59,960 nt of DNA from Acetomicrobium sp. S15 = DSM 107314. Its GTDB lineage: Bacteria; Synergistota; Synergistia; Synergistales; Thermosynergistaceae. Both the position numbers and the translations under genes were made by a program. The DNA lies in contig NZ_JADEVE010000127.1 in NCBI RefSeq assembly GCF_016125955.1, positions 1-59,960 of the forward strand, read 5' to 3'. Position 1 is the stretch's first letter. Each line of letters begins with the position of its first letter. Of this stretch, positions 1-55,347 are shown piece after piece. The notes below the pieces were generated by a model. That model was not told the origin of the DNA. It saw nothing but the letters and a program-made list of their open reading frames with translations, and did not search any database.

Positions 1-85
1 AGCCCTCGAAGAAGGCTTAAGGTTTGCAGTCAGAGAAGGCGGTCACACCGTAGGTGCTGGTGTGGTAACGAAGATATTGGATTAA
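1..85 (+). CDS. tuf: Elongation factor Tu, C-terminal end (partial)
   Basis: Only the last 27 codons are inside the window, read from base 2 to the TAA at 83-85. They encode the typical EF-Tu tail (RFAVREGGHTVGAGVVTKIL). EF-Tu is the GTPase that delivers aminoacyl-tRNA to the ribosome, and this piece is the end of its third beta-barrel domain. The gene lies 20 nt upstream of rpmG and 185 nt upstream of tRNA-Trp, the usual order at the end of a str-type operon. The start lies outside the window. Confidence 0.93.
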   Translation, partial: ALEEGLRFAVREGGHTVGAGVVTKILD

Positions 86-105
86 ATGGACTGGGGTGAA
101 TGTGA

Positions 106-252
106 ATGGCAGATATCATAGGGTTGCAGTGTTCTGAGTGCAAGCGGCGCAATTATACAACTACCATCAACAAGAAAAAAAGCAAAAAGCTTGAGAAGAA
201 AAAGTATTGCCCTTGGTGCGGACATCATACCTTGCACAAGGATACGAAATAG
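106..252 (+). CDS. rpmG: 50S ribosomal protein L33
   Basis: A 48-residue basic protein too short for most ORF finders. It has the L33 zinc-ribbon pattern: C9-x2-C12 near the N-terminus and C35-x2-C38 near the C-terminus (CSEC and CPWC), with a Lys-rich centre. This is the zinc-binding form of the large-subunit protein, not the Cys-free form. The ATG at 106 follows a GGGGTG ribosome binding site at 93-98. It lies directly after tuf and before tRNA-Trp, the common bacterial arrangement, and is probably cotranscribed with both. Confidence 0.92.
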
Positions 253-270
253 AGTAAAATAAATATATAC

Positions 271-347
271 AGGTCCGTAGCTCGAACGGCTAGAGCACCG
301 GACTCCAAATCCGGGGGTTGCAGGTTCGAATCCTGCCGGGCCTGCCA
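271..347 (+). tRNA. trnW: tRNA-Trp (anticodon CCA)
   Basis: A 77-nt cloverleaf. The acceptor arms AGGTCCG (271-277) and CGGGCCT (337-343) pair with one G-U, the discriminator is G344 and CCA is encoded at 345-347. The anticodon stem CCGGA/TCCGG encloses the loop CTCCAAA, giving anticodon CCA at 305-307. The T arm carries GGTTCGAATC. It is probably processed from the tuf-rpmG transcript. tRNA-Trp after rpmG and before secE is standard in many phyla, but here no secE follows. Confidence 0.97.
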
Positions 348-356
348 AGTTTAGTT

Positions 357-2075: not shown

Positions 2076-2119
2076 AAATTCAGGGGTGAGGATTAGAACA
2101 AATCCTCACCCCTGAATTT
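2076..2119. terminator. Bidirectional terminator between convergent genes
   Basis: A perfect 19-bp inverted repeat (2076-2094 with 2101-2119) with a 6-nt loop. Read on the minus strand it is followed by TTTTTGTATTATTTT, a good U-tract, so it should mainly end the leftward transcript of the Cys-rich protein and rhodanese. On the plus strand the tail is weak (TGCTCTTT). Confidence 0.8.
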
Positions 2120-2169: not shown

Positions 2170-2313
2170 CTACTCTTCGCCGCAGCAGCCTGGGCAACCT
2201 GCACATCCGTCCAACTGCCTAAAGAGCTCCTCCATAAGCCTCTCTTTTTCCTCTTGCGTCAGTTCAGCTTTCTTTTCTGTTCCTGCCTGAATTTTGTCTT
2301 TCTCTTGAGACAT
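2170..2313 (-). CDS. Small Cys-rich protein of unknown function
   Basis: I do not recognise this 47-residue protein. The first 30 residues are charged and Gln/Glu/Lys-rich, predicted helical. The tail LDGCAGCPGCCGEE holds four cysteines in ten residues, suited to metal, persulfide or selenium chemistry. The ATG at 2313 is preceded by AAAGGGAGG on the minus strand, and the gene starts 20 nt after the rhodanese stop, so the two are almost certainly cotranscribed. A longer reading of the same frame back to 2457 merely overlaps the rhodanese in another frame. The strong ribosome binding site and tight spacing favour a real gene. Confidence 0.6.
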   Translation of the reverse strand: MSQEKDKIQAGTEKKAELTQEEKERLMEELFRQLDGCAGCPGCCGEE

Positions 2314-2333: not shown

Positions 2334-2645
2334 TCATGCGAGCGGATAACCGGCCTTCTTCCAGGCGTTTACGCCTCCGGCCATCACTTTTACGTTGAAA
2401 AAGCCCAGCTTTTCGTAATTTTCCGCCACACGGGCAGAAGTGGCTTCGCTCCTTCAACCGCAGTAGAAAATGATCTCCTGGTCCTTCTTTAGCTCGGCTT
2501 CTTTGGCGCGCAATTCCTTAAGAGACATAGCACCCTCGAGGCGCATGCTCTTGCACCGCTCTTCGTCGCTATAAGCGCATACCAATAGTGCCTTGCCGGA
2601 TTGCACAGCTTCCCTTGCCGTTTGGGGGTTGATCTTTTCTGCCAT
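2334..2645 (-). CDS. Rhodanese-like protein, probable selenoprotein (in-frame UGA at 2456-2454)
   Basis: The conventional reading stops after 63 residues at FYCG. Reading UGA codon 64 (2456-2454) as selenocysteine gives a continuous 103-residue single-domain rhodanese. After the UGA the frame continues RSEATSARVAENYEKLGFF and then a Gly-Gly-Val-Asn-Ala-Trp segment and GYPLA, which is the normal rhodanese C-terminal half with its GG-x3-W and GYP signatures. In the related YCxCPxEATSA family the UGA position is a cysteine of the active loop, so Sec-for-Cys replacement fits. A short hairpin lies just after the UGA. The ATG at 2645 follows GGGAGGTGCC. The gene sits 56 nt after the molybdenum hydroxylase gene. 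Alternatives are a nonsense mutation or sequencing error. No SelABCD genes are in the window. Confidence 0.75.
2425..2444 (-). promoter_or_regulatory. Putative bSECIS hairpin after the UGA codon
   Basis: In the mRNA, GCCAC (nt 10-14 after UGA) pairs with GUGGC (nt 25-29) around a 10-nt loop containing UG and GU. Distance and size fit bacterial SECIS elements, which lie within the coding region close to the UGA and bind SelB. The stem is only 5 bp, so the call rests mainly on its position. Confidence 0.4.
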
Positions 2646-2701
2646 TAATCGGCACCTCCCTTGAAACCCTTTTAAATTATACCAAATTAAGTTCGTTTTG
2701 G

Positions 2702-5290
2702 CTACTTCTTTTTTAAAGCTTCAAGGACGGCTTCGGGCGTGATTGGCAAGTGGCGCACTCGCGCTCCGGAGGCAGCGAATATCGCGTTAGCCACAGCCGG
2801 GGCCACAGGGGGTAGGCCGGGCTCGCCAAGGCCGCCCATAGGGGCATCGCTCTCCACAAAGCGCACATTCACCTCTGGCGCCTCATGGATCCTCAAGAGG
2901 TCGTAATTATCGAAGTTGGAAGTGGCAACTCCGCCACCATCGAACGAGACGGCTTCTTTGAGCGCCGCGGAGAGCCCCATGAGCACGCCTCCCTCTATCT
3001 GAGCCCTTGCGATATCGGGATGAACCACCTTGCCACAATCTACTGCGCAGAAGATGCGGTGAACTTTCACCGTTCCCGTTCCCTTATCGACTGAAACCTC
3101 CGCGACTTGTGCTACGTGAGTGCCGAAGCAGAAGTGATAAGCAAGCCCGCGCCCCACGCCTTCGGGCAGGGACTTACCCCACCCGCAATCTTCCGCCACC
3201 GCCTTGAGAAGCCTCTGGACTCGGTAATTTCCCTCCAAAAGCTCGAGACGAAATTCCAGCGGATCTTTGCCCGATGCGTGAGCCAGCTCATCGACGAAGC
3301 ACTCCACAGTGAAAGCGTTGTGAGAACTGCCCACCGAACGCCAGAAACCCACCGGCACTGGTGCTTCAAAAGGCACGTAATGCACCCTGAAGTTAGGCAC
3401 CTGGTAGTCCATATTGACGAGCCCCTCGACAGCCGGCGGGTCGATTTCGCCCGCCATCTCCTGCGGGCGAACGCGGGCATAAATGGAGGGCGCGACTATT
3501 TTGTGGTCCCAGGCGATGAGCTTTCCGTCGGCATCCAAGGCCCCTACGGCGGAAGTTGCGTTGACCGGGCGGTAGAAGTCGTTTTTGAAATCTTCCTCCC
3601 GTGTCCATATGAGTTTAATCGGCTTCCCGACGAGTTTTGAAATTTCTACCGCCTCGCGGACGAAATCGGCCTCAAGCCTCCTGCCAAAGCCGCCTCCGAG
3701 GTAGGTCGTGTGGATAAAAACCTGATCCATTTTGAGCCCTGAGGCTTCGGCAGCTACGATATGAGATAGGCTCTGTGCTTGGGTTGACGCCCATACGTCG
3801 CACCTGTCTTCTTTGACGTAAGCCAAGGCGTTCATAGGCTCGAGAGGTACATGCGAGAGATAGGGAAGGATATACGTCGCTTCCACTTTCTTGCGCGCAC
3901 CGGAGATAGCTTCATCGACAGAGCCTTCGTTCTTAGCGATGACTCCGTTGGACTCAAGATGCTTCATGAGTGCATCGTTTAGGTGATCGTCGTTCCACTG
4001 GGGCCAGTTGCCATCGCTCCACTGGACCTCCAAGGCCTTGCGTCCTTTCCATGCCGCCTCGATGGAATCGGCGCATACCGCGATTCCGCTCGTTATCGGC
4101 ACAACTGATCGCACGCCCGGAATGTCAGCGGCCTTCTTGGGATCGTAAGATGCGGGCTTGGCGCCGTAAGCTGGTGGGCGTACCACCGAAGCGTATAGCA
4201 TCCCGTCGTGGAAGGAGTCTATGCCGAAACGCGTCCTGCCGTTTACCTTGTCTGGTATGTCTGCGCGAGGAACACCTTTGCCTATAAAGATAAACTCTCC
4301 CTCGCCTTTGAGGGTTGGGTCCTGAGGCACCTCAAGGTTAGAAGCTTTTGAGGCGAGTTCGCCAAAAGAGAGCGCGCGTCCCGTTGGCTTGTGAATCACT
4401 TTACCGCCAAATGCGTGGCATTCTCCTTCTGGCACCCCCCACGACTGCGCTGCGGCTCTAACGAGCATAGTTCTCGCTGCCGCCGCGAGTTTCCTCAAAG
4501 GGACAAAGAGATTTCGAACGGACGTGCTGCCGCCGGTTATCTGCACGCCCCGAACCGGGTCTTTGTAGCTGTCTCCGGCAAGGGCGAACTCCACTCTAAC
4601 CTTTTCCCACTCGGCGCCTAACTCATCAGCTACTATCATGGGGAGGGAAGTTGCAACGCCTTGTCCCATTTCGGATTTTGGTATGACTACCGTTATAATG
4701 CCGTCCGGCGAGATTTTTATCCACGAATCCTTCGTCTTTGCCATCACGGGCACACCACCCGGAGGAGTCGGCAAAAGCCCGATGAAAAGGCTATCCGCCC
4801 CGACAGACTTGCTCGAAATAACGCCCTCGGAGAGAGGCAAGTCGCCCTCCGCCGCCCGGCGGATTGCTCGTTTTATGCGCCGGTAAGTGCCGCAGCGGCA
4901 GAGCACCCCCCGCATGGACCGCTCTATATCGGCATCGCTCGGGTTCGGGTTTTCCGAAAGGAGAGCCACAGCCTGAACGATCTGTCCTGGTTGACAATAT
5001 CCGCACTGAGGCACTTGCTCGGCCACCCATGCCCTTTTTATAGGATGGTCCTCGGGGATGCCTTCGATCGTGACGATCTTCTTTCCCTGGGCCTGTTTCA
5101 CCGGCATCTGGCACGAACGCCTGGCCTTGCCGTCCACGAGCACCGTGCACGTCCCGCATCTGCCTATGCCGCAGCCGTATTTGGTTCCGGTGAGCCCAAG
5201 GTGCTCCCTTATGACCCATAAAAGCGGAGTGTCTGGCTCGACGTCCACCTCGTAGGTATCTCCGTTTATCTCCAAACTAACGTTGGCCAT
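2702..5290 (-). CDS. Fused [2Fe-2S]/molybdopterin hydroxylase (IorA-IorB or xanthine/aldehyde dehydrogenase type)
   Basis: An 862-residue protein. Residues 1-150 are the small iron-sulfur subunit: plant-type [2Fe-2S] ligands C40, C45, C48 and C60, then the helical [2Fe-2S] ligands C96, C99, C131 and C133. From about residue 183 comes the large molybdopterin-cytosine-dinucleotide subunit, with GGGFGRR for cofactor binding and [10 protein letters not shown] near the C-terminus carrying the catalytic Glu. There is no FAD domain, as in isoquinoline 1-oxidoreductase and related aldehyde oxidoreductases where the two parts are usually separate genes. The substrate is unknown. The ATG at 5290 follows GAGGAGGTGTCGTT on the minus strand. 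The Sec-rhodanese follows at once; enzymes of this family need a terminal sulfur on molybdenum. Confidence 0.85.
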
Positions 5291-31981: not shown

Positions 31982-32004
31982 GGTAGGAAGGATTTGTCGA
32001 GAGG

Positions 32005-32101
32005 GTGCACCTTCCCTGCGCCGGTATGACCCGGATCAGGTTCCAGGGGTCGAGGTTGGCTACCTCCTCTCAGTCGGTTTTATTCGACTCCCCCGATGCA
32101 C
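32005..32101 (-). ncRNA. TPP riboswitch (THI element)
   Basis: The conserved core reads on the minus strand: CTGAGAGG, then ACCTGATCCGGGTCATACCGG and GCAGGGAAGG, the pyrimidine- and pyrophosphate-sensing parts of the thiamin pyrophosphate aptamer. P1 is formed by GTGCATC (32101-32095) and GGTGCAC (32011-32005). It lies 58 nt before the proposed thiZ start and should switch the thiZXYW operon off when TPP is plentiful. Confidence 0.95.
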
Positions 32102-32105
32102 TTTT

Positions 32106-55150: not shown

Positions 55151-55187
55151 AAAAGAGATGGCGGAGGTTGTTTGTAGCGTTATGGTA

Positions 55188-55347
55188 AGCGCCTGGGCTG
55201 GCTCTTAACCAGCTGACGAGGTTGGGGGATAATCGAAATTGTCGGCGGGTGCCCCCATGGCCATGGAAGATAGGCCACTAAGCTGTCCTACAAAACCGCG
55301 GAGCGATCTGAGGGACAAAGGGGACGGCAATTCTTCCGTGTGGTAGG
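55188..55347 (+). ncRNA. glmS ribozyme (GlcN6P-responsive self-cleaving RNA)
   Basis: The leader of glmS matches the ribozyme core: cleavage site A|GCGCC at 55188/55189, TGACGAGG at 55214-55221, ATAATCGAA at 55228-55236, GTCGGCGGGTGCC at 55240-55252, and the closing helix CCTAC/GTAGG ending at 55347. Glucosamine-6-phosphate acts as the cofactor and the cut mRNA is degraded, so this gives feedback on glmS. It follows the galU stop by 37 nt and precedes the glmS ATG by 24 nt. Confidence 0.92.

Follow-up and report, generated by a model that had tools for sequence, protein, structure and literature searches.

An in-frame UGA very probably read as selenocysteine in a short rhodanese gene of Synergistota, and its probable U-x-U relatives

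Single-domain rhodaneses such as E. coli GlpE and the Wolinella polysulfide-sulfur transferase share their fold and the position of the catalytic cysteine with the protein described here, but they contain no selenocysteine (Sec), have a shorter active loop, and carry Asp-x-Arg where it has Cys-Ala-Tyr. Rhodaneses with Sec are already catalogued, and the nearest NCBIfam model, NF041203 (rhodanese_LYCAU), corresponds to the 'Rhodanese-like form 3, CxU' (PMC13188914). TsoB (NF045694) is a rhodanese/DsbD fusion double selenoprotein; it resembles the U-x-U rhodaneses discussed below in having more than one Sec in a rhodanese, but is a long fusion with the Sec spacing UxxxxU, whereas here UxU lies within one loop (PMC13188914). 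The CxC rhodaneses (YCxCPNEAS) of Sec-free relatives have the same active-loop length and the pattern C-x-[C/U]-P-x-E, with Cys replacing Sec. Reviews list the CxU rhodaneses; no separate account of the subfamily treated here was found among the papers searched, and older surveys may include members. CxU selenorhodaneses are already known, and what is new is a 47-residue candidate partner gene in seven Synergistota and the apparent U-x-U form. The preliminary description of this locus was right that Sec-containing rhodaneses had been reported, and overrated the novelty of the single-UGA form because these CxU proteins are catalogued.

The gene lies on the minus strand of the window, which is the whole 59,960-nt stretch of Acetomicrobium sp. 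S15 DNA analyzed, and has the following features:

2337 to 2645, minus strand: selenorhodanese coding sequence, 103 codons, UGA64 as predicted Sec (ORF reading, PF00581, homologues)
2454 to 2456, minus strand: the in-frame UGA, predicted Sec64 (kept as TGA in the 58 distinct copies read directly)
2460 to 2462, minus strand: codon of Cys62, the canonical rhodanese catalytic Cys, which is UGA in U-x-U relatives (invariant in the alignment)
2577 to 2579, minus strand: codon of Cys23 in the LVCAY motif, at the apparent place of Asp in the usual rhodanese LIDVR (invariant in the alignment)
2421 to 2439, minus strand: predicted bacterial SECIS hairpin with arms 2439-2433 and 2427-2421 and apical loop 2432-2428, CGUGU (fold, covariation, PMC13188914 model)

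Translation from the ATG at 2645 to the true stop, TGA at 2336-2334, gives 103 residues, interrupted by a lone in-frame UGA at 2456-2454 that is residue 64 and stands two residues past the catalytic Cys (FYC-G-U); the coordinates of the UGA after YCG and of the frame running to a real stop were exact as first described. Under standard annotation the gene would finish at residue 63. On its own, an open frame of 39 codons beyond a stop is not rare. The full read-through product scores 40.7 bits against PF00581 (gathering threshold 22.2), in agreement with its initial identification as a rhodanese, and its structure model (pLDDT 92.4) has rhodaneses, including GlpE and polysulfide-sulfur transferase, as PDB matches. 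Positions G17, C23, E57, Y61, C62, A74, G81, G91, W95, and G99 are invariant in the alignment and C64 is nearly so; UGA was read as Cys in this alignment, and the C62 and C64 columns therefore include Sec. The classical catalytic Cys is C62, which closes a strand and opens the active loop; up to the next Ser, this loop is two residues longer than in ordinary rhodaneses. The proposal of Sec in the active loop holds for residue 64, but the classical catalytic residue is not replaced, with that Cys remaining at 62 and Sec at +2. From the alignment and general knowledge of the family, C23 would occupy the place of the Asp of LIDVR.

FYCGU contains the C-x-U motif after LY/FY that serves as the NF041203 criterion, and the window protein scores 60.2 bits against that model, under its cut-off of 115. 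Six members of the window subfamily score 45 to 71 bits, two genes of one Synergistota genome (G123) pass the cut-off (158.5 and 147.6 bits), and the tree parts the window subfamily from the NF041203 group with moderate support (88/83, unrooted). The two groups are alike in the rhodanese fold, the Y-C-x-U loop followed by xxExTSARVA, and the position of the SECIS hairpin (21 sequences), but the NF041203 members that were read have a signal-peptide-like start and mostly IDxR, whereas members of the window subfamily have about 103 residues and LVCAY. A signal-peptide-like start is absent from the window subfamily except in two Synergistota U-x-U proteins with a hydrophobic N-terminus of their own. 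By these features the window protein belongs to a short sister subfamily of NF041203 with a third conserved Cys (LVCAY). It is a single-domain, probably cytosolic, predicted selenorhodanese.

The draft genome containing the window (2.44 Mb, 438 contigs, 99.87% complete) has all four genes of the Sec pathway, selA, selB, selC, and selD, whose presence had been proposed as a check. selA (569 bits) and selB (368.8 bits) adjoin one another (L014, 5945-7879 and 7876-9273), tRNA-Sec (selC) scores 77.6 bits against a gathering threshold of 47, and selD scores 346 bits. Across the 62 genomes with the subfamily, selB is above its curated cut-off in 57, and the other five have partial or weaker matches. 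A genome-wide code change, with UGA read as an ordinary amino acid such as Trp or Gly, would also leave the frame open when TGA is taken as a residue. However, the gene itself terminates at TGA 39 codons on, arguing against a global change, the genome has the full Sec pathway including tRNA-Sec, and many relatives have a single UGA within the gene and end at TAA or TAG, making a code change exceedingly improbable. As a separate observation, the selD gene (G000:C388:123188-124117, minus strand, L019) has one in-frame TGA of its own, and SelD is for that reason probably itself a selenoprotein.

Conservation of the UGA was followed by profile searches of 277 genomes of the class of a Geomonas, 347 of the class of a Desulfohalobiaceae genome, and 188 of Synergistota, the phylum of the window. 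Among the 65 matches of at least 110 bits counted from the profile-search tables, 63 have the in-frame TGA, one has TAA, and one has no stop; in every one of the 58 distinct copies read directly, TGA lies two codons 3' of a TGC or TGT (or TGA) at the catalytic position. The UGA is kept in the sister species at 88% identity, in other Synergistota at 52 to 68% identity (G012, G187, G017, G016, G014, and a partial sequence in G015), and in one Desulfohalobiaceae genome and five named Geomonas isolates; altogether at least 58 related genes of anaerobic bacteria have it, nearly all with the recoding hairpin. Alignment of close homologues at codon 64, one of the checks first suggested, thus finds UGA and not Cys. 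The Cys first attributed to relatives at this codon (YCxCPxE) is indeed seen in more distant ones, in the class of a Thiotrichales genome (G195), where some matches show Cys at the position of Sec (YCTCPNEASAARV, YCACPNEASAVLV, YCDCPNEISAARV), but not in the nearest, which carry Sec. Rhodanese matches at E <= 1e-9 in 369 genomes of the G195 class, used as a control, contain TGA in 0 of 64. Searches of plasmids by tblastn returned just two distant part matches, and a scan of viral contigs returned none. The locus offers a clean case of a rhodanese loop that pairs Cys with Sec, the latter kept across two phyla with hardly any reversion to Cys.

A hairpin had also been described after the UGA, and folding of this segment finds one that fits the published bacterial SECIS model. 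It has seven pairs (six to seven in the fold), the 5-nt loop CGUGU with G at loop position 2, a UGA-to-loop distance of 21 nt, and a free energy of -9.2 kcal/mol for 47 nt, within the model's limits of a 3- to 9-nt loop, a 4- to 16-bp stem, G in loop positions 1-2, 16 to 37 nt from the UGA, and a minimum free energy of -7.5 or lower (PMC13188914). The stability of the window hairpin alone is no better than that of shuffled sequence (z -0.23), and the single-sequence fold was dropped as proof of a SECIS element. Covariation was examined in 49 distinct sequences, in which the bases after the UGA are in register without gaps (U of UGA numbered 0). Five pairs, 19-33 to 23-29, hold as Watson-Crick or G-U in all 49, and G-U in the apical loop is almost invariant (GGUCG in 27, GGUCU in 8, CGUGU in 6, AGUGU in 3, and single variants in 5). 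Pair 20-32 couples two third codon positions (TA 23, CG 22, TG 3, AT 1) and has the top mutual information among all third-position column pairs; it is Watson-Crick in 46 of 49 sequences versus a shuffled mean of 23.4, matched in 0 of 5,000 shuffles, a count that is not a probability because the sequences are related. TG, TA, CG, and AT all occur at this pair within Synergistota alone, and the sister family of NF041203 type (21 sequences) shares this helix, except that pair 19-33 is GC instead of CG. The outer pairs 18-34 and 17-35 are not conserved across relatives and were not retained as part of the helix, and the sole helix-breaking copy is the two-UGA gene of G670, outside the set of 49. 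Homology (63/65 TGA, 58 copies) and hairpin covariation together place the observation far above chance.

The frame 3' of the UGA is, by its substitution ratios, under purifying selection, with dN/dS between the window and its sister species of 0.119 before the UGA and 0.217 after, and 0 to 0.25 after the UGA in Geomonas-type pairs. In most pairs dS is lower after the UGA, as expected if the hairpin limits synonymous change. These values bear on the possibility of a pseudogene or an assembly error, a decaying gene whose TGA arose from a Cys (TGC/TGT) or Trp codon by mutation or misreading. In its favor are the draft state of the genome (438 contigs) and a paralogue elsewhere, in G329, whose corresponding codon is TAA, but the same TGA is present in the sister species and in dozens of independent genomes, including the named Geomonas isolates, dN/dS is low past the codon, and the hairpin covaries. 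Conservation already refutes decay or error for the family, and it is highly improbable for this copy; the decaying frames that would have pointed that way are not seen among relatives, bar that one second copy. The TAA copy (L139 1140-1439, minus strand, G329:C57) has its hairpin and frame preserved, and could be a pseudogene, an error, or a different use of the site.

Partial termination at Sec UGA codons is well known for bacterial selenoproteins, and the UGA could accordingly act mainly as a stop or switch, giving mostly a 63-residue truncated product, with Sec read-through following selenium supply such that the gene senses selenium. However, truncation would remove the latter part of the rhodanese fold, and the sequence on each side of the UGA is constrained, so that a role chiefly as a switch is very unlikely. 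Computation establishes the Sec decoding signals, their conservation, the fold, and the conserved thiols, and we are nearly certain that UGA64 is decoded as selenocysteine in a real selenoprotein gene; the sel genes, the conserved UGA, and the covarying hairpin all favor the selenoprotein with a C-x-U pair that was originally suggested.

The selenorhodanese gene is followed by a small gene, and the two are bracketed by a promoter-like site and a terminator-like hairpin:

2170 to 2313, minus strand: small Cys-rich protein of 47 residues with the C-terminal sequence LDGCAGCPGCCGEE, encoded immediately after the selenorhodanese
2676 to 2704, minus strand: promoter-like sequence upstream of the selenorhodanese, TAGCCA-17-TATAAT with extended TG (consensus match only)
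2076 to 2119, minus strand: strong terminator-like hairpin of 19 pairs after the small gene (consensus match only)

The small gene begins 20 nt past the rhodanese stop and is present in 7 of the 188 Synergistota genomes and none elsewhere in the phylum; all seven have the selenorhodanese, and in all seven the small gene is immediately 3' of it (by flank read-out or coordinates). Its product matched no NCBIfam model, its Pfam hits were all sub-threshold, and it is a candidate partner. The neighbors of the selenorhodanese differ in other lineages, no neighborhood indicating a substrate is conserved beyond the small gene in a few Synergistota, and there are no sel genes nearby. A link to the adjacent xanthine-dehydrogenase-like gene (selenium-dependent Mo hydroxylase) was discarded as general context, since beyond the genus the relatives have different neighbors and the promoter-like site separates the two genes. 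Elsewhere in the window are a glmS ribozyme (55177-55338, plus strand, 92.6 bits) and a TPP riboswitch (31995-32104, minus strand, 74 bits), and the ORF at 82-348 (minus strand) is antisense to tRNA-Trp (271-347) and has a typical spurious GPAGFEPATPGFGVRCSSRSS translation.

A plausible path from decoding to activity can be proposed, in which Sec incorporation, the substrate, and the role of the partner are what we infer. SelB and tRNA-Sec would decode UGA64 under the direction of the hairpin, which lies 21 nt further on, to give the active-site loop C62-G-U64. As in other rhodaneses, Cys62 would bind sulfane sulfur, or selenium, to form a persulfide, which Sec64 would attack, releasing sulfide or handing the atom on. 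A Cys62-Sec64 selenenylsulfide would form and be reduced by Cys23, cellular thiols, or the Cys-rich candidate partner of 47 residues, and either this small protein or Cys23 may act in reduction or in transfer. The detailed chemistry is put forward tentatively, with somewhat less than an even chance of being right as proposed, and the protein may also have a role in selenium delivery.

Some members of the subfamily have two in-frame UGAs, and the Synergistota genomes with this form also have Sec-less paralogues:

L056 4564-4911, L058 5741-6130, and L094 1486-1803: two-UGA rhodaneses with a U-x-U loop (in-frame UGAs)
L055 5049-5375, minus strand, and L145 465-746: Sec-less paralogues with C-D-S or C-D-T

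L056 (G123:C8) and L058 (G124:C2), from two Synergistota genera, read FY-UGA-A-UGA-P (FY-U-A-U-P), and their products have an apparent N-terminal membrane segment. Their hairpin is intact and would serve both UGAs, with its loop 21 and 27 nt downstream; pair 20-32 is AT in L056. L094/L138 (G670, of the Desulfohalobiaceae class) reads LY-U-A-U-P with a weaker hairpin in which two stem pairs are mismatched, and is a weaker case than the two Synergistota genera. L056 and L058 form one clade (100/99), whereas L094 groups with a Desulfohalobiaceae CxU protein (97/79); because L094 falls elsewhere in the tree, two origins of U-x-U are likely, though unproven. We consider it probable that the catalytic Cys itself has been swapped for a second Sec within the subfamily to give a U-x-U diselenol loop, and if so, a rhodanese acting via a diselenide/selenolate pair would have arisen more than once. 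The two paralogues with C-x-S/T indicate that Sec is not essential to every copy, and the natural CxC, CxU, UxU, and CxS/T versions make the contribution of selenium to sulfane-sulfur chemistry directly testable.
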